In this document: piece by piece, positions 6,552 to 15,612 of the stretch
Numbering within the stretch: position 1 is the first letter of the stretch
Layout of the letters: each line of letters begins with the position of its first letter
NCBI RefSeq assembly: GCF_947500605.1
Contig: NZ_CANMSJ010000002.1
Span: 248,001-312,000, forward strand
Direction: 5' to 3'
Length of the DNA stretch: 64,000 nt
Source of the DNA: an uncultured Lacinutrix sp.
GTDB lineage: Bacteria > Bacteroidota > Bacteroidia > Flavobacteriales > Flavobacteriaceae
Position numbers and translations under genes: made by a program
The notes under the pieces: model-generated
Seen by the model: the letters and a program-made list of their open reading frames with translations, nothing else
Databases searched by the model: none
What the model was told of the DNA's origin: nothing

Positions 6552-6905
6552 TTAATTTAAAATTAGTGTGTAGTTTATATCGTCTAGATCTATATAGTTA
6601 TCGAAAACATGCTTTTTACTATAGAAAAGTGCTTTTAACTCTTCTATTTCCTGCCTATTAAACATTAAAACTAGATTGGGTTGTAAAGATGGTATTGGTA
6701 TTTTACGTTTAACTTTCGAGTGTGCATATTTTGTTTCCCAATAGTTTGTTTCTATATTTAAAAGGTAGTTTTTAAATTTTTCATACTGCTCTACATTAAA
6801 CTCAAAACATATATTATTAAACTCTAAATGGTATATTTCGCAGTTTTCACATATTGATAATTCGCCACTACTAACTTTTGATATTGTCTTTATATTATGG
6901 CACAT
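6552..6905 (-). CDS. Conserved hypothetical protein with N-terminal CxxC-like pair
   Basis: This 117-residue soluble protein shows SICENCEIYHLEFNNICFEF near the start, with two cysteines spaced CxxC, and RKIPIPSLQPNLVLMFNRQEIEELKALF later. The pattern resembles a small Bacteroidota protein family that I think is catalogued as DUF6686, but that assignment is from memory. There is no signal peptide or membrane helix. It lies 16 nt downstream of the PepSY reductase gene and could be the last gene of that transcript. The cysteine pair might bind metal; this is only a suggestion. Confidence 0.8.
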   Translation of the reverse strand: MCHNIKTISKVSSGELSICENCEIYHLEFNNICFEFNVEQYEKFKNYLLNIETNYWETKYAHSKVKRKIPIPSLQPNLVLMFNRQEIEELKALFYSKKHVFDNYIDLDDINYTLILN

Positions 6906-6921: not shown

Positions 6922-9111
6922 TTAGTAACAATCTGTTTTTATTTGATTTTTTTCTATAAACTTGCTTAACGGAAGGTTTAAATTTTCTGTTGTAATGGTA
7001 TTTAGGGTAGCCAATACATCGTTTTGCATGGCTAACGATCCGCAAAGCATAATCACACCTTTATTTTTTAAGGTTTCTGCAATAAACAAAGCGTCTTGCT
7101 TTAAGACGTCTTGCACGTAAGTTTTAGGTTCTTCTCTAGAAAACGCTAACTTTAATTTGGTAAGATTTTTACTATTATAATTTTCTTTAATAGCATCGCG
7201 ATATAAGTTAAATGAAGCATTTTGCCTTAAACCATAATAAAAATGTGTTTCTGTATTTTTAGTGTTTTGGTCTATCATTCCTAAAAAAGGAGCGATACCA
7301 GTTCCGTTGGCAATTAATATTACTTTTGAGGCTTTTTTAGGAAAATGAAACGCCTTATTTTTAATAATTCGCGCCTTAAAATGAGCGCCTATTTCTAATG
7401 TATTTAAAAAGCCTGAGCCTAATCCGTTTTCGTGAAGCTTTACACTTAATTGAACATTACCATTTACTTTACCAATGGAATATAAACGCTCTCTATAATC
7501 ATTTTCTGGATAGATGGCGAGCAAATCTCCAGAAGTGAATGTATTGGTATTCGGTTTTAAGGTGATTAAAAATGTGTTGTCTGCATGGTCTTCTGCTATG
7601 GTTTTGTCTACAACCGTAAATGTGTTGTTTAACCTAGGTTTTATGGCTAGTTTTTCTTTTGAAATTGTAATTTGAAGCTCACGCTTCTTATTCCAAAGGT
7701 TTATCCATTCTTGAAACGATTCTACCGATTTATCGTTAATTGTAAAAACAGGTAATTCTTGCTTAAACTGAAGCTTCATCTCGGCATCGACATCGAAAGC
7801 AAATTTGCAAAAATCGGGATAAGCTAATGATCCAAAACCAACAACCGAATAACTTATTTCTTGCTCTTGTTTTATAGACTTTAAGCGCTGTAAAAATGCA
7901 CTTGCGTTTGTTGGCGCTTCACCTTCACCATAAGTAGAAGTCATTATTATAAAATGCTCTGCTTTACTAAATGTGTTATAATTATTAAGCTCTGCGGTGT
8001 AAGCTATTTCTCCCGCTTTTATTAATTGTTGTTGCAATTGGTTTGCAAAAGGCATGGTGTTTCCGTTTTCCGAACCTACTAAAATCACATACTTGCAAGC
8101 GTCCTTTTTATACTTGTTTTTTAGTTTAGATTTCCTTCGTTTTAGCGTCATTACAAAACCAGAATAGATAAAAAACAGAATATTTGCGGTTGCAATTGCT
8201 AAAATAAGAGACCATAAAACACTACCTTTTCCTGTGTGTAAATTGAGACTTAATGTAGAAAAAACGGTTACTAATGGTGTTTCTATTTCGCTTAAAACAG
8301 CTCCATTAAATTGATTGACTACTATTTCTCTGTCTTTAAGTGAAATGGTAAAATAGTCTTCGACATCATTAGAAAAAGGAAACTCAATACTTTTTACTTC
8401 GGAAAGCTTTGTGCTTTTAAAAACTGGAAACGCTTTAATATCTATTTTTGGTATTTCCGATAAGGTTTCAAAATCTATTTGATGGGAGCTTGTGTTTTTT
8501 GGAAGGACATCGAATTTTTCTAACGATAAATAAACACCTGTAATAGTAATGATAATAATTGGAATTAAAGACAAACGTCCTAAAACCACATGCCAATATT
8601 GATTAAAATTCTCGTTAACTATTTTAGAGAAAAACTTTTTAAAACCACCTTGTCTTTTTAAAATTAATACGGTTCCTGAAACTGCAATTAAAAATAATAG
8701 GAACGAACATAAACCAACAAAAAAACGACCAATACTCTTTAAAAATAGCGATCTATGAAAATTAGTAACCCAATTAAAAAACTTGGACACTTCTATTTTG
8801 TCTCCTAGAAACTGTCCTGTTCTCGGGTTTATATAACCATTTAAACTTTCGCCATCGTTAGTAATTACTGAGGCTAAAACAAACTGATTTGCATCAATTT
8901 GAAGATCTAAAACTTCGGGATATTCTGTTTTTAAATTCGAAAGTGTTTCGGCAAGTGTTATGCTTTCAAAATCTGAAACCTTATACGGTTCCATTTGTTC
9001 CGAGATTGGCTGAAAAGCCAAGATGATTCCAGTTATAGAAGCTAATAAAATAAAGACAAAAGAAGATACAGCTAGTGTAAGATGGCTGTATCTCCAAATT
9101 GAAATGGTCAT
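6922..9111 (-). CDS. PepSY-TM / flavodoxin / FNR fusion, predicted transmembrane NAD(P)H-driven reductase
   Basis: This looks like an electron-transfer protein carrying reducing power from cytosolic NAD(P)H across the inner membrane, probably for ferric or haem-iron reduction. Residues 1-330 are a PepSY-TM unit with four helices (about 10-33, 128-151, 175-195, 298-322) and histidines placed like haem ligands (H10, H119, H174, H292). Residues 341-472 are a flavodoxin domain (SENGNT 347-352, TYGEGEAP 393-400). Residues 495-729 are an FNR-type reductase (RLYS 542-545 for FAD, GTGIAP 603-608 and CGSLAMQNDV for NAD(P)H). The soluble half resembles sulfite reductase flavoprotein. It follows the DUF2271 gene and belongs to the haem/iron region. 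The terminal acceptor is inferred, not seen. Confidence 0.92.
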   Translation of the reverse strand: MTISIWRYSHLTLAVSSFVFILLASITGIILAFQPISEQMEPYKVSDFESITLAETLSNLKTEYPEVLDLQIDANQFVLASVITNDGESLNGYINPRTGQFLGDKIEVSKFFNWVTNFHRSLFLKSIGRFFVGLCSFLLFLIAVSGTVLILKRQGGFKKFFSKIVNENFNQYWHVVLGRLSLIPIIIITITGVYLSLEKFDVLPKNTSSHQIDFETLSEIPKIDIKAFPVFKSTKLSEVKSIEFPFSNDVEDYFTISLKDREIVVNQFNGAVLSEIETPLVTVFSTLSLNLHTGKGSVLWSLILAIATANILFFIYSGFVMTLKRRKSKLKNKYKKDACKYVILVGSENGNTMPFANQLQQQLIKAGEIAYTAELNNYNTFSKAEHFIIMTSTYGEGEAPTNASAFLQRLKSIKQEQEISYSVVGFGSLAYPDFCKFAFDVDAEMKLQFKQELPVFTINDKSVESFQEWINLWNKKRELQITISKEKLAIKPRLNNTFTVVDKTIAEDHADNTFLITLKPNTNTFTSGDLLAIYPENDYRERLYSIGKVNGNVQLSVKLHENGLGSGFLNTLEIGAHFKARIIKNKAFHFPKKASKVILIANGTGIAPFLGMIDQNTKNTETHFYYGLRQNASFNLYRDAIKENYNSKNLTKLKLAFSREEPKTYVQDVLKQDALFIAETLKNKGVIMLCGSLAMQNDVLATLNTITTENLNLPLSKFIEKNQIKTDCY

Positions 9112-9162
9112 ATTTTTTTATTTTGAAACTTCTCGCAGATCACTTGAAGTAACATGATAGAA

Positions 9163-9648
9163 TTAATTAGGCATTAAACGTACATAACGAATAAAACCAG
9201 AACCTTCTTTTTTGCTTTTTACACTTTCTGATGTTAAAGGAAATTCCACATCCTTTGTGTAATATTCTTGATCTTCTACAGCAGTTTCAAAACGAATACT
9301 GTAACCAGTATCAATTTTAGAATCTTCAATATCTATTACACTAATACTTCTTGCACCTCCTGCAATTGTAGCTCCTGTAATAGCATCAATTTCTGTTCGT
9401 TTTTTACCGTAGAATTTCCACCATTCTGAAATGTCGTGATACCACTCTTCATCATCACCTTGTACGTATAACGTTTTTTCGTATTCGCCTTCAGGATTAA
9501 TAAGTGAAATAACGACGTAAGCGCTTTCACCAGAATAATTAATCATTTGAATCATGCATTTATACGATGTCGATTCTGTTACTGTTGTAAATGATAGCGT
9601 TGAAATTGCTAAAACTCCAAGTACTAAAAGTGTTTTTAATGTTTTCAT
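9163..9648 (-). CDS. DUF2271 periplasmic protein with flavinylation-like motif
   Basis: This is a secreted protein of 161 residues with a signal peptide (MKTLKTLLVLGVLAISTLSF). At residues 88-94 it contains D-A-I-T-G-A-T, which matches the (D)xx(S/T)GAT motif where ApbE attaches FMN covalently to threonine in NqrC/RnfG-type proteins. By analogy Thr94 (codon 9367-9369) would carry the flavin. I recall DUF2271 proteins having been proposed as ApbE substrates, but could not check. It sits 51 nt upstream of the PepSY-flavodoxin-FNR gene, so a periplasmic electron acceptor or relay for that reductase is the natural hypothesis. No apbE lies in the window. Confidence 0.88.
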   Translation of the reverse strand: MKTLKTLLVLGVLAISTLSFTTVTESTSYKCMIQMINYSGESAYVVISLINPEGEYEKTLYVQGDDEEWYHDISEWWKFYGKKRTEIDAITGATIAGGARSISVIDIEDSKIDTGYSIRFETAVEDQEYYTKDVEFPLTSESVKSKKEGSGFIRYVRLMPN

Positions 9649-9750: not shown

Positions 9751-11229
9751 TTATTTTAAAAAATCTAAATTGGTTTTCTGTGCTTTTAAAATTTCGTTTT
9801 CAGAAGCTAAATCGTAAGGTGTCTCTCCAAAATCTGTAGTCGCTTCTTTTTTAGCTCCGATAGAAATTAAATACTTTAAGATTTCTGTGTTTTTTGCTTG
9901 TAGAGCAGCAAGGTGTAAAGCGGTATTTCCTTCTTTATTTTTAGCATTTACATCTATATTAAATTGCTTGATAAGCTTTAAAATATTGCTGTTGTTTTTT
10001 GGTAAAGCTAAATGGTACAAGGTATTTCCGTTTTCTTGTATTTTAGTGATATCTAGTCCGTTTTTTGTTAAAACATCTAGTTTTTGCTTAAAAACATCTT
10101 CTTTTTTAGTTGAAAACGATGCTATTAAATAAGCCGTTAAATTGTTTTTATTAGCATCTAAAACCGAAACATCTGCTTTATTATCAATTAAAAAACGAAC
10201 AACCTCTGGTGAATTATTTGCCACAGCTAAAGCTAGTGCAGACTCTCCTTTTTTATTAACCTGGTTTATATTTTTTAAATCCTTAGATAATAGTCCAACA
10301 GTTTCCGCAGTATTTCTACTAGCAGCGTTTATAAAAGGTGTATTTCCGTTATCATCTACTGCATTTACATCTAATCCCTTATTAACTAAGTAGCTAATAA
10401 GTTCTAAATCTTTACTTCTAGACGCTAAGATATGTAGTGGTGTTTCTCCTTTTATTGAAGCCTTATTAAGATTTAAATCTACACTTTCTAAATACTCATA
10501 AAAATCTAGTGTGTTTGTTTTTCCTCTTGTTCCATAGGCTGCAAAAACAAAAGCGTTATCTGTACCTTTTACTCCTTTTTCTATTAGCTTATTTAACAAC
10601 TCTATATTACCTGTTTTGGCAACATAATTAAATATGCCATTTCCATCTCTATCTACACTATTAATATCTACTCCTTTTGAGGTGAAATAGCTAATTAGTT
10701 TAAAACCTTTATCGTAAGGTGCAGCAAGTAATAACGCATTAGCACCATTTGGTGTTAAATCCGTTTTTACATTAGCGCCATTTGCAATACAAAGGTCGTA
10801 GACTTTGGTATTTTGCTGACCAGAACCCGCAGCGAAATTTAAGATTGTACTTCCTTTATCGTCTGTAATATCTGTTTTTGCTCCTTTGTTTAAAAGATAT
10901 TCCATAAAAGCAATATTGCCTTTATAGGCAGCCCAGAAAATATAGGTTCTACCATCGTGCGTTAACTTATTGACATCGTTTCCTTTTTTAGATTGAATGT
11001 GCTTTAAGGTTTCTAATGGTGCATCTTGTAAAATAGCATATACAACCGCATCAAAATTATTGCTATTGGCTTCTGCTATATTATTAACTTCTTTTATTTT
11101 AGTTTCTACAGTTTTAACTGTTGGGTTTGTATTCCAAAAATCTCTGTCTAAAAACACATTCTCTTGTGCAAATATTTGAGTAGTTAAAAACAGTACTGCA
11201 AGGGTTATTATATTTTTTAAAAATTTCAT
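9751..11229 (-). CDS. Secreted ankyrin-repeat protein of the haem/iron region
   Basis: This 492-residue protein has a signal peptide (MKFLKNIITLAVLFLTTQIFAQ) and then almost nothing but ankyrin repeats. At least ten are recognisable, for example DGRTYIFWAAYKGNIAFMEYLLNKG, GNTPFINAASRNTAETVGLL and GNTALHLAALQAKNTEILKYL. Ankyrin repeats bind proteins; exported ones in the Bacteroidota often accompany redox or TonB genes. It lies between DUF6607 and DUF2271 on the minus strand. A promoter-plus-palindrome at 11316-11348 suggests it heads a transcript with DUF2271 and the PepSY reductase. The binding partner is unknown; DUF2271 or the PepSY protein are the obvious candidates. Confidence 0.92.
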   Translation of the reverse strand: MKFLKNIITLAVLFLTTQIFAQENVFLDRDFWNTNPTVKTVETKIKEVNNIAEANSNNFDAVVYAILQDAPLETLKHIQSKKGNDVNKLTHDGRTYIFWAAYKGNIAFMEYLLNKGAKTDITDDKGSTILNFAAGSGQQNTKVYDLCIANGANVKTDLTPNGANALLLAAPYDKGFKLISYFTSKGVDINSVDRDGNGIFNYVAKTGNIELLNKLIEKGVKGTDNAFVFAAYGTRGKTNTLDFYEYLESVDLNLNKASIKGETPLHILASRSKDLELISYLVNKGLDVNAVDDNGNTPFINAASRNTAETVGLLSKDLKNINQVNKKGESALALAVANNSPEVVRFLIDNKADVSVLDANKNNLTAYLIASFSTKKEDVFKQKLDVLTKNGLDITKIQENGNTLYHLALPKNNSNILKLIKQFNIDVNAKNKEGNTALHLAALQAKNTEILKYLISIGAKKEATTDFGETPYDLASENEILKAQKTNLDFLK

Positions 11230-11360: not shown

Positions 11361-12266
11361 TTATTTTTTAACAAACGATTCAATTAATGGATTAATTTCC
11401 TCAGATGTTTTATACTTTTCTTTATCGAATAAATACTTAAACAATACTTTATTATCTACTTTTTCTTCTAAGAATAAATCTTTATTTCTAGCAAAAACTT
11501 CATCCCATTTTGCACGTACTAAAGCCCATTTATCTTTTTCTTTTGCCCAATAGTCTTGTGCAGCAACACATTCGCTATCCTCAACTCTTTTGTACACATT
11601 AAGTCCTTTTTCTTCGGCTATAAGTTGATAAACACCTTCTTCACTTAAAATTTTCTGATTGTCTTGATCGTGTATCCAACCTGTTGTAGTTAATTCATGT
11701 CTATTTGTTCTACCAGTAACATTATAATCGCTACGTTGTGTGTATTCACGTCTTGGTAAAGGTGCAGTTGTAGTATTCTCCCAATAGTGCTTACCGTCTA
11801 AATGAATCCAAGTTGCAGAACCTTCGTAACGTGGGCTATCGTCTACCTGAAATACTTTTTGAGACCATTGTCCTTCTACTTGTCTTTTATTTAGTTTTGT
11901 GTATTTCCATTCGTTATTTCTAAAATACTCATACAAGTCTGTATTCTCATACTCCCAATCTTGTCTCCAATGCTTTACAATATATGGTTGCTCTTTAGAA
12001 CCAACAATTAATAAATGTTGCATCGATATTTTATCTTTTTCATCCTCTACAAGTTGTACCCATTCTAAGCCTTTATCGTGTTTTGTTTTAGAAGCAACAT
12101 ATGTTGAATCATCTGAATACTGAAAAGTTTCAGCAAAATTAAAGCTTACTTCATAACAACCACACATGCTTTTAATGGCTTTTTGATCTTGTTTTTTCTT
12201 GCTTTGAGCATTTATACTAAACGGTATCGAAAGAATAATTGCTACTAATACTACTAAATGTTTCAT
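11361..12266 (-). CDS. DUF6607 family secreted protein
   Basis: This 301-residue protein has a signal peptide (MKHLVVLVAIILSIPFSINAQ). The mature part carries features I associate with DUF6607: MCGCYEVSFNFAETF near the start (with a CxC pair), several tryptophan-rich strands (VKHWRQDWEYE, GSATWIHLDGKHYWENTTTAPLPRREY) and a C-terminal helical segment. Family function is not known to me. It is divergent from the TonB receptor gene and shares its Fur-like control region, so it is likely iron-responsive. The Trp/His/Tyr-rich surface would suit binding a haem-like or siderophore-like ligand, but this is speculation. Confidence 0.88.
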   Translation of the reverse strand: MKHLVVLVAIILSIPFSINAQSKKKQDQKAIKSMCGCYEVSFNFAETFQYSDDSTYVASKTKHDKGLEWVQLVEDEKDKISMQHLLIVGSKEQPYIVKHWRQDWEYENTDLYEYFRNNEWKYTKLNKRQVEGQWSQKVFQVDDSPRYEGSATWIHLDGKHYWENTTTAPLPRREYTQRSDYNVTGRTNRHELTTTGWIHDQDNQKILSEEGVYQLIAEEKGLNVYKRVEDSECVAAQDYWAKEKDKWALVRAKWDEVFARNKDLFLEEKVDNKVLFKYLFDKEKYKTSEEINPLIESFVKK

Positions 12267-12316
12267 TTTTAAGCTATTTGGTTATGGTATTAAAAAAATA
12301 TTGAAAATTTACTATT

Positions 12317-12352
12317 CTTATTTAGATTGAATTAAAATAAGATATATATTTG
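12317..12352 (+). promoter_or_regulatory. Promoter and Fur-box-like palindrome of the TonB receptor/DUF6607 divergence
   Basis: Positions 12317-12341 form a 25-bp imperfect palindrome with outer arms CTTATTT/AAATAAG; its core reads TTAGATT-G-AATTAAA, a 7-1-7 arrangement like classical Fur sites. The plus-strand TATATTTG at 12345-12352 matches the -7 box and would start transcription near 12360. The site therefore lies in the promoter spacer of the receptor and upstream of the divergent DUF6607 gene. Confidence 0.5.
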
Positions 12353-12365
12353 CAGCAAATATAAA

Positions 12366-12380
12366 ATAGAATGATTCTAA
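12366..12380 (+). promoter_or_regulatory. Second Fur-box-like palindrome, overlapping the receptor start codon
   Basis: ATAGAAT-G-ATTCTAA is a nearly perfect 7-1-7 palindrome spanning the ATG at 12371 and lying just after the predicted transcription start. Together with 12317-12341 it brackets the -7 box, a layout suited to iron-dependent repression. Confidence 0.5.
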
Positions 12381-14500
12381 ATAAAAATAAAATCACCATT
12401 TATTTTTCACTTTTTTTAAGCTGTATTTCTTTTGCTCAAGTAAAAAAAGACTCTGTAAAAACTCAATCTCTTGAAGAGGTAGTTATTACAGGTCAATACA
12501 ATGCACAGTCTATAAAAAAGTCTATACATAACGTTACTGTAATTAATAGAAAGCAAATTGAAAGTCAGGCTGCAAATAATTTAGCCGATTTATTAAATTT
12601 CAATCTAAATCTTACGGTTACTCCTAATGCACAATCTGGAAAATCTACAGTTTCATTTTTTGGATTAGACTCTCAATACTTTAATATTTTAATAGATAAC
12701 ATTCCGTTGGTGAGTGATAATGGCTTAGGAAACAATATCGATTTAACCCAAATAAATCTTGACGATATTGAACGTATAGAAATCGTGGAAGGTGCAATGG
12801 GCGTAGAGTATGGTGCAAATGCTGTTTCGGGTGTTATTAATATAATTACAAAGAAAACCATTAGTAGCGATTGGAAAATTCAAGCTTTTGTACAAGAAGA
12901 AACCATTAGCGATGAATACGAATGGTTTGATGAAGGAAGACATATACAATCTCTTAGTATTGGACATAATATAAACGAAAAATTGTTTGCTAGAGTTGGC
13001 TTTAATAGAAATCAATTTGCTGGATTCTATAATGGCAGACAAGGACAAAACCACTATATAAACGATAGTTTACGTGGTCATGATTGGTTACCTAAAACTC
13101 AATTTAACACCAATGCTTTACTAAATTATAATACTAACAAGTTTAAGTTAGTATACAAATCGGAATATTTTAATGAGGTTATAAATAACTACGGTGTTAC
13201 CGTTAGGGCTAATATTGATACCGATAATCAAACAAGTAATCCAACATCAACCGATAAAATTTTTACAACAAACAGGTTTGTAAACAATTTAAATTTAAGC
13301 GGAAGTTTAAATTCTGGTGCAAATTATAATGCTTCATTTTCTTATCAAACTCAGAAAAAAGATTTAAACGAGTTTACTTACTACATACTTACTAAAGATA
13401 AAACCGATGAAATTGATGAAACCTACCAATCGAGTCATGTGTTTTATTCTAAAGGAGATATAAACAACCTTGTTAAAAGTGATTTTTTCAACTTTCAGTT
13501 AGGTTACGAAACCCGTTTTATAAAAGGTTTCGATACGCAAGCTTCGGGAGATATTACCCAAAAAGACAAAACAAGAAAACAAGATAATGTTGCGTTGTTT
13601 GGTTCTTCAGAATTAAAACTGACTAATAAATTTTCGATAAGACCTGGTGTGCGTTATGAGTATAATTCCTTATTCGATTCTAAACTGTTAGCTTCATTAA
13701 GCACACGCTATTTAATGCCTAAAGGTTTCGAGTTACGCGCAAACGTTGGTACTTCTTACAGAACACCAAATTTTGAAGAGTTATACTACTACTTTGTCGA
13801 TTCTAACCACGATGTACAAGGAAATGAAAACTTAAATCCTGAAAAAGGATATTCGGCATTTTTAACCTTAAAAAAGAGAAGTTGGTTTAACGATACTTCT
13901 TTACAAAACACAATAAAACTTAGCTATATAGACTTAAAAGATAAAATAGATCTTGCTATTGTAAACACTGCACCTTTACAATACGAGTATATAAATATTG
14001 ATACTTATAAGCTTTGGGGAATTACACAGGAGAACAGTATAAAACGAGATAACTGGGCTTTTAATTTAGGTGGAACATTACAAGGTATTTCTAGAGTTGC
14101 AAGTAATGAAGTTAATATAGATAATGACTTTTTATATTCTTACCAATTAAACACAAGTGCTACTTATAACGTTAAAAAATGGAATACTGCTTTTACATTG
14201 CTATTAAAGCATAATGGGAAGCAAAAGGACTATGTGTCTAGCGGAACAGATGGTAATGGCAATTCTGTATTCGAAAAAACCACAACTGATGCTTATAGCT
14301 GGTTAGATGGTTCTATAAAAAAATCTTTTTTAAACAATAAAATTCAAGCAACAATTGGCGGTCGAAACCTATTAGATGTTACTAATGTAAATGTTAGTAA
14401 TAATTCTACAAATGGTGTGCATTCCTCTAGTAATAGTGCATTACTGTTGGGTTACGGACGCTCTTATTACTTAAAACTATTATATAATTTAAACTTTTAA
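12371..14500 (+). CDS. TonB-dependent outer-membrane receptor, HmuR-like (haem/iron)
   Basis: This is an outer-membrane gated channel powered by TonB. The 709-residue protein has a signal peptide ending FAQ, a TonB-box-like segment SLEEVVITG at about residues 33-41, a plug domain (VTVINRKQIESQAANNLADLL to VEYGANAVSGVINIITKK, about 48-162) and a beta-barrel ending YYLKLLYNLNF with the terminal aromatic typical of barrel assembly. It has no carboxypeptidase-like N-terminal extension, unlike SusC, which fits iron/haem receptors. The HmuY gene follows after 11 nt, and this pairing argues for haem as substrate. The TonB/ExbBD energisers are elsewhere. Other iron chelates cannot be excluded. Confidence 0.93.
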   Translation: MILNKNKITIYFSLFLSCISFAQVKKDSVKTQSLEEVVITGQYNAQSIKKSIHNVTVINRKQIESQAANNLADLLNFNLNLTVTPNAQSGKSTVSFFGLDSQYFNILIDNIPLVSDNGLGNNIDLTQINLDDIERIEIVEGAMGVEYGANAVSGVINIITKKTISSDWKIQAFVQEETISDEYEWFDEGRHIQSLSIGHNINEKLFARVGFNRNQFAGFYNGRQGQNHYINDSLRGHDWLPKTQFNTNALLNYNTNKFKLVYKSEYFNEVINNYGVTVRANIDTDNQTSNPTSTDKIFTTNRFVNNLNLSGSLNSGANYNASFSYQTQKKDLNEFTYYILTKDKTDEIDETYQSSHVFYSKGDINNLVKSDFFNFQLGYETRFIKGFDTQASGDITQKDKTRKQDNVALFGSSELKLTNKFSIRPGVRYEYNSLFDSKLLASLSTRYLMPKGFELRANVGTSYRTPNFEELYYYFVDSNHDVQGNENLNPEKGYSAFLTLKKRSWFNDTSLQNTIKLSYIDLKDKIDLAIVNTAPLQYEYINIDTYKLWGITQENSIKRDNWAFNLGGTLQGISRVASNEVNIDNDFLYSYQLNTSATYNVKKWNTAFTLLLKHNGKQKDYVSSGTDGNGNSVFEKTTTDAYSWLDGSIKKSFLNNKIQATIGGRNLLDVTNVNVSNNSTNGVHSSSNSALLLGYGRSYYLKLLYNLNF

Positions 14501-14511
14501 AACCAATTACA

Positions 14512-15612
14512 ATGATTAACAAATTTTTTACCTCAATTTTATGCGCCTCTGTATTACTGTTCACAAGCTGTAGTAGCGATGACGACTCAACACCTACACA
14601 ACCAATACAAGTTGTAATAGAAGGTGCTGCCATATCTCCATTAGTTGGAGGTCCAAACGAGCAAAATCAAGTTTATGTAGACTTAAGTACAAACACAAGT
14701 ACAGCTGTGCAGCGTGATTCTTGGGATTTAGGTTTTTATTCTGGATCAGAATTTAGAGTTACTATAAATGGATCTATAGCTATGGCTGCAGCCCAATTAA
14801 CAACAACAGATATTGATGCCGTTACTTCTACTAATCAAGAAGTAATAGATTTACAACCAATGGTGAAAACTAATACTTATAATGAAGTAAGTATGCAATA
14901 TATAGATACTCCAAATGGAGATTTAAGTGGTACTGCTTTTTCAGAAATTTCTGCAACAGATGCTAATAACCATGTTTACCTTGTAAATTTAGGCTATGAA
15001 GTAGGAACAGAAACACCTGCAACAGGAAGTGTTGACACTACAGATGACCTAAGAGGTTGGAAAAAAGTAAGAGTATTACAAGATGGATCTAACTATATTT
15101 TACAATATGCAGATTTAGACGATACAACTCATCAAGAAGTGACCATCTCAAAAAACTCTAGTTATACCTATAATTTTTTTAGTTTTAATACTAATAGTGA
15201 AATTAATATAGAGCCAGCTAAAGAAAAATGGGATTTAAACTTTACAACATTTACAGATGAAGTGTTTATTGGTGCTGATAGTTATGGCCCTTATTTTTAT
15301 TCAGATTTTGTTGTTACCAATACAAAATCTAATACAACTGTATACATGATAGATACAGAAGTAGACACATTTACATATGACGACTTTACACTTGAAGATG
15401 TTATAGATACAAATTTTTCAAACGACCAACGTGCAATTGGAAGCAGCTGGAGAAATGGTGGTGGACCAGGAACATTACCTTCTTTAAAAGAAAACGTGTT
15501 TTACATAGTAAATGATACCGATGGTAATTTGTATAAGCTTAAGTTTTTAGCTTTAACAGATGCTTCCGGAGAAAGAGGTTACCCTGAATTTGTTTATAGT
15601 TTATTACAATAG
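14512..15612 (+). CDS. HmuY family surface lipoprotein (haem-binding type)
   Basis: In Porphyromonas, HmuY is a surface lipoprotein that captures haem and passes it to the TonB receptor HmuR. This 366-residue protein has lipid Cys20 (FTSC) followed by SSDDDST, an acidic stretch typical of surface-exported flavobacterial lipoproteins. Two homologous all-beta halves are suggested by repeats of the DSWDLGFYSGSEFRVTING type (residues ~67-86) and KEKWDLNFTTFTDEVF (~237-252). These W-D-L/N-F strands are the HmuY-family hallmark. It is cotranscribed with the receptor and followed by a terminator (15631-15660). Haem ligands are not obvious from reading, so the exact ligand is inferred from context. 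Confidence 0.88.
   Translation: MINKFFTSILCASVLLFTSCSSDDDSTPTQPIQVVIEGAAISPLVGGPNEQNQVYVDLSTNTSTAVQRDSWDLGFYSGSEFRVTINGSIAMAAAQLTTTDIDAVTSTNQEVIDLQPMVKTNTYNEVSMQYIDTPNGDLSGTAFSEISATDANNHVYLVNLGYEVGTETPATGSVDTTDDLRGWKKVRVLQDGSNYILQYADLDDTTHQEVTISKNSSYTYNFFSFNTNSEINIEPAKEKWDLNFTTFTDEVFIGADSYGPYFYSDFVVTNTKSNTTVYMIDTEVDTFTYDDFTLEDVIDTNFSNDQRAIGSSWRNGGGPGTLPSLKENVFYIVNDTDGNLYKLKFLALTDASGERGYPEFVYSLLQ

Follow-up and report, generated by a model that had tools for sequence, protein, structure and literature searches.

The question raised by this locus is whether a haem uptake operon of a marine flavobacterium carries its own supply of reducing power. The locus lies in a 64,000-nucleotide stretch of DNA from an uncultured Lacinutrix sp. 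of the family Flavobacteriaceae (contig NZ_CANMSJ010000002.1, positions 248,001 to 312,000 of the forward strand), which we call the window. On its minus strand, in order of transcription, are genes for a DUF6607 protein, an ankyrin protein, a DUF2271 protein, a PepSY_TM-flavodoxin-FNR fusion and a DUF6686 protein; on the plus strand, divergent from the DUF6607 gene over 104 base pairs (bp), are genes for a TonB receptor, an HmuY-family protein and an FG-GAP protein. The original prediction, made from the sequence of the window, was that the PepSY_TM fusion and DUF2271 form a chain running from NAD(P)H through flavin adenine dinucleotide (FAD), flavin mononucleotide (FMN) and a membrane haem to a flavinylated periplasmic protein, ending in the reduction of ferric or haem iron, with the ankyrin and DUF6607 proteins as extra parts. 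Here we argue that this is probably an operon for acquiring haem iron that also provides its own reducing power. The proteins that carry this argument, for which the earlier coordinates and domain calls (PepSY_TM, Flavodoxin_1, NAD_binding_1, DUF2271) proved correct by Pfam, are the following (aa, amino acids).

6922..9111, minus strand: PepSY_TM-flavodoxin-FNR fusion, 729 aa, predicted transmembrane NADPH (reduced nicotinamide adenine dinucleotide phosphate) oxidoreductase, from Pfam, residue invariance, AlphaFold and fold matches; Pfam domains PepSY_TM at residues 10-325, Flavodoxin_1 at 343-463 and NAD_binding_1 at 599-699.
9163..9648, minus strand: DUF2271 protein of 161 aa, labelled as exported and predicted to be a substrate of ApbE (Pfam PF10029, 5.6e-41, residues 27-154).
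9367..9387, minus strand: DAITGAT motif, DUF2271 residues 88-94, from the sequence and its conservation in 122 homologues.
9367-9369, minus strand: codon of Thr94, predicted FMN attachment site.
9751..11229, minus strand: protein of 492 aa with ankyrin repeats, third component of the relay cassette (Pfam; signal-like N terminus judged by eye).
11361..12266, minus strand: DUF6607 protein, a RhuH-type haemophore by profile match to 8XJC and by alignment, 301 aa.

The DUF6607 protein had wrongly been set aside as an extra part. When a profile of 43 DUF6607 proteins was compared with solved structures, it matched 8XJC, described as a 'haemophore', with an expect value (E) of 5.1e-117, all others having an E of 0.2 or worse; by phmmer, the window protein matched 8XJC with an E of 1.3e-91. 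8XJC is the crystal structure of RhuH of Riemerella anatipestifer, which is reported to bind haem with a dissociation constant of 3.4e-11 M and with His96 as ligand (PMC11967795). In that work His96 was tested by mutation, and the contacts R143, Y144, R170, R183 and Q198 came from a predicted complex. All six residues are identical in the window protein (H99, R146, Y147, R173, R186 and Q201, a shift of three) and invariant in the 43 DUF6607 sequences. The gene layout is also alike: rhuH is divergent from rhuR-rhuA over a 122-bp promoter with a Fur box (PMC11967795). Both systems have a related haemophore with these six haem contacts and, divergent from it over about 100 bp, a TonB receptor gene and a second haem-binding gene. 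Judged by sequence, DUF6607 is thus the orthologue of the haemophore RhuH. DUF6607 was not named in the open-licence literature that was searched. As a separate observation, the DUF6607 proteins share an invariant CGC near the N terminus (43/43 in the family; in the window at 12156-12164, residues 35-37), where the solved RhuH has AGC.

The fusion protein is the candidate for the membrane-spanning part of the relay. Conservation is counted here over distinct sequences from loci L033-L188 plus the window, the A-numbered alignments being subsets of these, and L109-L188 being the best 80 of 207 matches and hence close relatives. Among 114 distinct full-length homologues, H10, H119, H174 and H292 are each invariant and no other histidine is, which singles out the four histidines that had been put forward as haem ligands. 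That a PepSY_TM domain is fused to flavodoxin and FNR modules with intact cofactor motifs is likewise supported, by Pfam and by the residues expected to hold FMN (G346, E348, G350), FAD (R542, Y544, S545) and NADPH (G603, G605, P608, S658, Y665, C690, Y729), each of which is present in 114/114 homologues. The protein is likely to prefer NADPH over NADH, given the invariant S658 and Y665, though the preference is not settled since residue 659 varies (R in 51/114 and Q in 48/114).

AlphaFold models of the whole fusion and of its membrane half contain four long transmembrane-type helices and two PepSY-type domains, with mean predicted local distance difference test scores (pLDDT) of 84.3 and 84.1 and predicted template modelling scores (pTM) of 0.56 and 0.73, respectively. 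Going by helix order, H10 and H174 sit at one face of the membrane, with H119 and H292 at the opposite face, and this order suggests that the four histidines pair to hold two haems. Because the fold search with the whole protein gave reductases only among the 50 matches listed, the membrane half was folded alone; its top match was FoxB (7ABW; Z 11.0, root-mean-square deviation (rmsd) 8.5, 304 residues aligned), the next having a Z of 6.8. With so large an rmsd, and a Z short of the roughly 13 below which the tool advises caution with helical bundles, the likeness to FoxB is one of fold and not of precise geometry. A sequence profile also matches FoxB (E 2e-4), over residues 10-157 only, and aligns H10 and H119 to FoxB histidines. 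The C-terminal half is a diflavin module like that of P450 and nitric oxide synthase reductases, its FAD/NADP part matching 1F20 with a Z of 28.9 and an rmsd of 1.9 over 239 aligned residues.

The periplasmic end of the chain would be DUF2271, which was labelled as exported from an N terminus that is signal-like by eye. Its D-A-I-T-G-A-T stretch had been read as the motif for covalent FMN attachment by ApbE, and it is not there by chance: among 122 distinct homologues D88 is kept in 120, G92 in 121 and T94 in 121, where a lack of conservation would have spoken against flavinylation. The strict form [ST]GA[ST] is found in 107 of the 122, including the window protein (TGAT at 91-94); in the other 15, position 93 is Glu in 13 and Pro in one (L063), and the ApbE-fused protein of L060 is without the motif. 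The original prediction was also right in mentioning DUF2271 as a proposed substrate of ApbE: the DUF2271 protein of another species was flavinylated by ApbE upon co-expression in E. coli, and a Thr-to-Ala control indicated that the Thr is needed (PMC8238504). By analogy, Thr94 of the window protein may carry covalent FMN. In a profile comparison of DUF2271 with solved structures no credible match was obtained (best E 0.064).

The variants of the motif deserve mention in their own right. GET replaces GAT, mostly in otherwise complete cassettes, in L056, L057, L090, L093, L096, L128, L130, L163 and L175; DUF2271 proteins with VGET are found in L054, L058 and L061, and one with AGET in L098. With these GET-type proteins, nature offers a test of whether flavinylation needs the Ala of the motif. 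We considered whether motif loss goes with a DUF2271 gene that stands alone and rejected the idea: the lone copy in L054 has VGET, but the lone copy in L041 has TGAT, and VGET is also seen in L058 and L061, whose cassettes are complete.

Flavinylation requires us to consider where ApbE would come from. A search for apbE elsewhere in the genome, as the original prediction had proposed, found one gene, inside an nqr operon. This outcome has no discriminating power, because apbE is present in 149/149 family genomes searched. As it is the only apbE of the genome, the ApbE of the nqr operon would have to serve both systems. Two arrangements outside the window count in favour of the relay: at L060:7858-9381, which is not a RhuH locus, ApbE and a DUF2271 part without [ST]GA[ST] are fused, and at L097:5257-6261 an apbE gene, the sole separate one in the mapped loci, comes immediately after a cassette of ankyrin, DUF2271 and PepSY genes that lacks RhuH.

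Are the haemophore and the relay genes associated beyond this genome? The family survey covered 149 genomes from 148 genera and placed DUF2271 at 52 and DUF6607 at 54 positions above the cut-off; DUF2271 matches below the cut-off (G133, G081, G117) and extra HmuY pieces of one gene were removed before distances were counted, and the flavodoxin-class PepSY rows (at least 49, two of them shorter) were hand-picked as open reading frames of >700 aa or lying beside DUF2271. The co-occurrence that had been anticipated was found: DUF2271 lies <1 kb from the PepSY fusion in at least 47/52 loci and <5 kb from DUF6607 in 32/52, where chance would give about 0.15 of 52 such pairs, and DUF6607 lies <5 kb from HmuY in 50/54. 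An absence of association between the families, which would have counted against the relay, was thus not observed. Of the DUF2271 genes in the mapped loci, 51 are free-standing; within 1 kb, 48 of these have an ankyrin gene, 47 a PepSY gene and 46 both. In 80 near-related loci of named genomes, which are the best 80 of 207 matches, phmmer searches with the window proteins detected ankyrin in 80, PepSY in 80, DUF6607 in 75, TonB receptor in 65, HmuY in 44 and DUF6686 in 25, a procedure that undercounts the fast-changing HmuY and TonB proteins and that includes some contigs cut short. The median gaps are 5 bp between the DUF6607 and ankyrin genes (89 distinct spacers), 8 bp between the ankyrin and DUF2271 genes (114) and 13 bp between the DUF2271 and PepSY genes (117); the corresponding gaps in the window are wider (131, 102 and 51 bp). 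Because the medians are so short, the haemophore and the relay probably form one transcription unit in the window's clade, and this spacing is the strongest sign of it. An additional promoter with a palindrome between the DUF6607 and ankyrin genes of the window was considered and dropped, given the median gap of 5 bp at that place in its relatives. In one genome (G020), DUF2271 (L041, TGAT) and the PepSY fusion (L088) lie apart, and no ankyrin gene stands beside DUF2271.

The place next to rhuH is not always occupied by the same genes. Downstream of DUF6607, the 54 family loci have ankyrin, DUF2271 and PepSY genes in 31 cases, a lone DUF2271 in one (L054, VGET), an FMN_bind-type gene in nine and neither in 13, and no locus has both. 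The nine FMN_bind-type proteins are encoded directly after DUF6607 (Pfam PF04205 in the three checked, the others by profile); the fold of FMN_bind is described as different from that of DUF2271 (PMC11334425). Class-wide, DUF6607 is found in 29/346 genomes; among 27 further RhuH loci from this set (L218-L244), the full cassette occurs in L236 and L242, from another family, FMN_bind followed by a membrane-type protein of about 165 aa in L234 and L239, and a short PepSY_TM gene just upstream of DUF6607 in L221 and L222, also of another family, L222 having DUF4198 as well. That three kinds of electron-transfer gene are found in one place speaks for reduction being needed next to the haemophore. 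When mapped onto a tree of 81 RhuH rows, these labels require four changes for DUF2271, three for FMN_bind and one for short PepSY. The 34 DUF2271 rows all fall within a single clade of 47, and the 11 FMN_bind rows within a single clade of 15; independent, repeated flavoprotein swaps were therefore rejected in favour of about one gain each and some losses. We propose, tentatively and with more doubt than confidence, that haem uptake in these Flavobacteriia has a periplasmic reductase of its own for haem iron, in which a relay across the membrane from NADPH to flavin acts on haem delivered by RhuH and HmuY, and that the slot beside rhuH is filled by at least three carriers, namely DUF2271 with the PepSY-diflavin protein, FMN_bind (sometimes with an undescribed membrane protein that has an invariant HxH) and short PepSY_TM.

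The FMN_bind-type proteins encoded after DUF6607 in loci without DUF2271 (L066, L067, L068, L070-L075, with L075:9945-10502 as an example, L234:8117-8644 and L239:8072-8623) show, across these eleven, SGAT, TGAT or AGAT as versions of GAT. The protein of about 165 aa encoded after FMN_bind genes has four hydrophobic stretches by eye and an HxH that is invariant in 6/6 sequences (L072:10217-10711, L067:14875-15375, L046:467-967, L187:13619-14131, L234:7620-8114 and L239:7568-8071), and the four that were tested gave no Pfam match; it is a candidate partner or cytochrome.

Taken as a chain, the system could work as follows. RhuH would capture haem and, together with the TonB receptor and HmuY, bring it to the periplasm, a capture route shown in part for the rhu genes of R. 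anatipestifer (PMC11967795). The PepSY fusion in the inner membrane would take electrons from NADPH to FAD in its FNR domain and on to FMN in its flavodoxin domain, from where they would pass to a b haem on the cytoplasmic side (H10/H174) and then to one on the periplasmic side (H119/H292), a path suggested by the invariant residues, the models and the FoxB structure. From the second haem they would reach FMN bound covalently to Thr94 of DUF2271, a cofactor that the ApbE of the nqr operon would attach, and reduced DUF2271 would then reduce ferric haem on periplasmic carriers, or Fe(III) released from haem. The resulting Fe(II) would enter by FeoB, which is present in the window's genome, and the ankyrin protein might, as a guess, be a periplasmic scaffold or carrier. 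We regard the relay itself as likely, and haem or its iron may be the final electron acceptor. In this form the chain retains the succession from NAD(P)H through FAD, FMN and haem to a flavoprotein, which fits our sequence tests and the published flavinylation of DUF2271 (PMC8238504), and departs from the original prediction in giving DUF6607 a part that is more than an extra. A haem oxygenase (PF01126) was considered as a sign of need and was absent from the window's genome, but it is present in only 14/149 genomes and 9/54 genomes with RhuH; since it is rare anyway and other haem-degrading families were not searched, nothing follows from its absence.

Several observations weigh against a haem-iron operon with its own reducing supply. 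In the window, apbE is not linked to the locus, and its presence in the genome is uninformative. The strict [ST]GA[ST] is missing in 12/97 DUF2271 proteins of RhuH loci; among the nine FMN_bind proteins of the family loci it is present in only four (SGAT), the other five having AGAT, with GAT in all nine and the Asp lacking in one. H10 lies in the least certain part of the models (mean pLDDT of 42 and 63 for residues 1-10). The 13/54 family RhuH loci that have no relay gene downstream are joined by 21/27 of the further class-wide loci, which show none of these relay genes, so that 34/81 RhuH loci are without any of the electron-transfer gene kinds. The clade-wise distribution of the labels on the RhuH tree also means few events, and three are not many. 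Finally, at 20/52 places DUF2271 is not within 5 kb of DUF6607.

These last places bear on the main rival explanation, according to which the relay reduces ferric iron or ferric chelates in general, with Fe(III) of any origin as its substrate, and has only its regulation in common with haem uptake, the TonB receptor deciding the cargo and haem never being reduced; we see this and a haem-specific role as about evenly balanced. At ten of the 20 (L050, L052, L053, L055, L062, L100, L101, L103, L104 and L107, with PepSY present except in L062), two genes, with products of 779-808 and 424-463 aa, lie directly upstream of the ankyrin gene. The larger has a TonB-receptor Plug domain in both cases checked (L053, L055), and the window receptor matches that of L062; for the smaller, Pfam scans of three examples (L050, L053, L055) gave no match. 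With ten cassettes beside another TonB-receptor-sized gene, haem is not the only partner of the cassette. The RhuH loci L092 and L095 themselves contain extra inserted receptors with a Plug domain, and of the related reductases FoxB acts on ferri-siderophores, while the use of ferrioxamine depends on HiuB (PMC13001220, PMC13038864). In R. anatipestifer, the genes B739_0173 to 0177, annotated as TonB receptor, hypothetical, ankyrin, 'predicted periplasmic protein' and 'nitric oxide synthase', are apparently the counterpart of the cassette, judged from gene order and annotation. They are induced by iron limitation (log2 3.3, 3.6, 2.4, 3.1 and 1.0), as are rhuH-rhuR-hmuY (B739_1415 to 1417; log2 4.7, 3.8 and 4.5) (PMC5429918), and Fur binds upstream of B739_0173 (PMC7976709); the tags of the two gene groups are far apart, as a general reductase would allow. 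On the other hand, rhuH and the cassette form one tight cluster in the window's clade, closer than shared regulation needs, and FMN_bind and short PepSY_TM genes occupy the same place beside rhuH elsewhere. Given the other homes and the iron induction in R. anatipestifer, the cassette appears to be linked to iron generally and to haem in the window's clade.

The remaining alternatives concern parts of the mechanism. DUF2271 might here be an unflavinylated structural protein, the PepSY protein reducing its substrate directly, as has been proposed for FoxB, which is described as holding the ferri-siderophore in a cavity of its own (PMC13038864). The GET and VGET variants in otherwise complete cassettes (e.g. 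L056, L058, L061, L090) and the location of the only apbE in an nqr operon would agree with this; we nevertheless consider it unlikely in view of the near-invariant D88, G92 and T94, the prevalence of the strict motif, window included, and the flavinylation proven for DUF2271 elsewhere (PMC8238504). It is less probable still that electrons run inward, or that the system protects periplasmic proteins from oxidative damage during haem uptake and does not serve iron release. The sequence does not fix the direction, reversal has been considered possible (PMC8238504) and the ankyrin protein is a nearly constant companion of DUF2271 (48/51), but the NADPH-type diflavin module would point outward, as does the link to FoxB-type reductases. 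Least probable of all, and in our view very improbable, is that the relay reduces copper, as proposed for CrpH of Bordetella, a PepSY_TM protein that has conserved histidines of the same kind and is encoded in an operon regulated by copper (PMC13038864): the haemophore, HmuY and the iron-limitation response of the apparent counterpart (PMC5429918) speak against it, and the Pfam scan of eight cluster proteins detected no copper family. A haem-iron acquisition operon that brings its own reductant is the reading of the window locus that we favour.

How much of this is new? The relay is not, because flavinylation of a DUF2271 protein by ApbE has been proven and relays of the PepSY/DUF2271 kind have been described as a class (PMC8238504). 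That survey counts 3220 PepSY-like clusters, of which 2833 have DUF2271 and 231 a TonB gene, and finds an NAD-binding domain in 1077 PepSY-like genes; for such flavinylated systems it suggests a role in reducing or acquiring iron (PMC8238504, Meheust et al. 2021). The window locus resembles them in combining PepSY_TM with DUF2271, and resembles some of them in having an NAD-binding domain or a TonB gene; it differs in that their frequent partners ApbE and DUF4198 are not among the eight window proteins scanned. HmuY, ankyrin and DUF6607 are not named in the main text of PMC8238504, whose supplementary cluster list may contain such loci; likewise, the text of the RhuH paper (PMC11967795) names neither PepSY nor DUF6607, and the passages considered do not describe relay genes. 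A pepSY gene is named in the legend of a gene-map figure of HmuY-related loci (PMC12106395). Among the open-licence matches listed, none joined a PepSY/DUF2271 relay to a haemophore or HmuY locus, subscription papers and supplements such as the eLife cluster list being outside this scope. What is new, then, is the setting of the relay: a DUF6607/RhuH haemophore in one cluster with PepSY and DUF2271, the relay itself being prior art.

Other known systems share parts of the design. FoxB of P. aeruginosa (7ABW) and HiuB of Caulobacter have the membrane fold, the two PepSY domains and the conserved histidines for two haems, whereas FoxB, a chain of 365 residues with a siderophore as substrate, is without the flavodoxin-FNR half. 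FoxB is not known to have a DUF2271 partner. NADPH-cytochrome P450 reductase, nitric oxide synthase reductase and CysJ have the flavodoxin and FAD/NADP module with the same motifs, which the window protein, unlike these enzymes, carries fused behind a membrane domain with four invariant histidines. The HmuS de-chelatase of Bacteroides is a Bacteroidota route from haem to Fe(II) in which one bound haem must be reduced, but it is an enzyme of anaerobes (PMC12583661), and the scan, which covered eight proteins of the window, detected none.

The neighbouring features complete the locus.

12267..12370, no strand: divergent promoter region between the rhuH-like and TonB receptor genes, 104 bp, with a layout like that in PMC11967795 and a conserved element.
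12371..14500, plus strand: TonB-dependent outer-membrane receptor, 709 aa, in the position of rhuR (Pfam Plug and barrel).
14512..15612, plus strand: HmuY-family protein, 366 aa (Pfam PF14064, 1.2e-29, two stretches).
6552..6905, minus strand: small DUF6686 protein of 117 aa, which closes the cassette in some loci, its link being uncertain (Pfam).

The best named relatives are Lacinutrix species, with 97% for DUF2271 in L. algicola. The NCBIfam matches of the receptor (TonB-B12 as the best, and also the heme/hemoglobin receptor TIGR01785) are both far under their cut-offs and hence do not fix its ligand. In the divergent spacers, TTATTTAGA is present in 97/99 distinct sequences, both strands counted, against 1.4 in letter shuffles and with no correction for relatedness, and TATATTTG in 96/99, counted in the same way; the two are likely to be a regulator site and a promoter box. 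Naming TTATTTAGA a Fur box was considered and abandoned, as the putative box printed in PMC7976709 differs from the consensus against which it had been scored; the element is left unnamed. Small cysteine-bearing proteins recur near RhuH or relay genes (DUF6686 in the window, L046:4079-4426 and L223:10192-10527), that of L046 having no Pfam match.

RhuH has been characterised; the reading proposed here concerns the fate of haem after its import in these aerobic Bacteroidota. With a reductase in the same cluster, a periplasmic reductive step becomes directly testable, and DUF6607 can be named as a haemophore family. If the reading proposed here is true, the flavinylated PepSY/DUF2271 systems would gain a concrete partner substrate.

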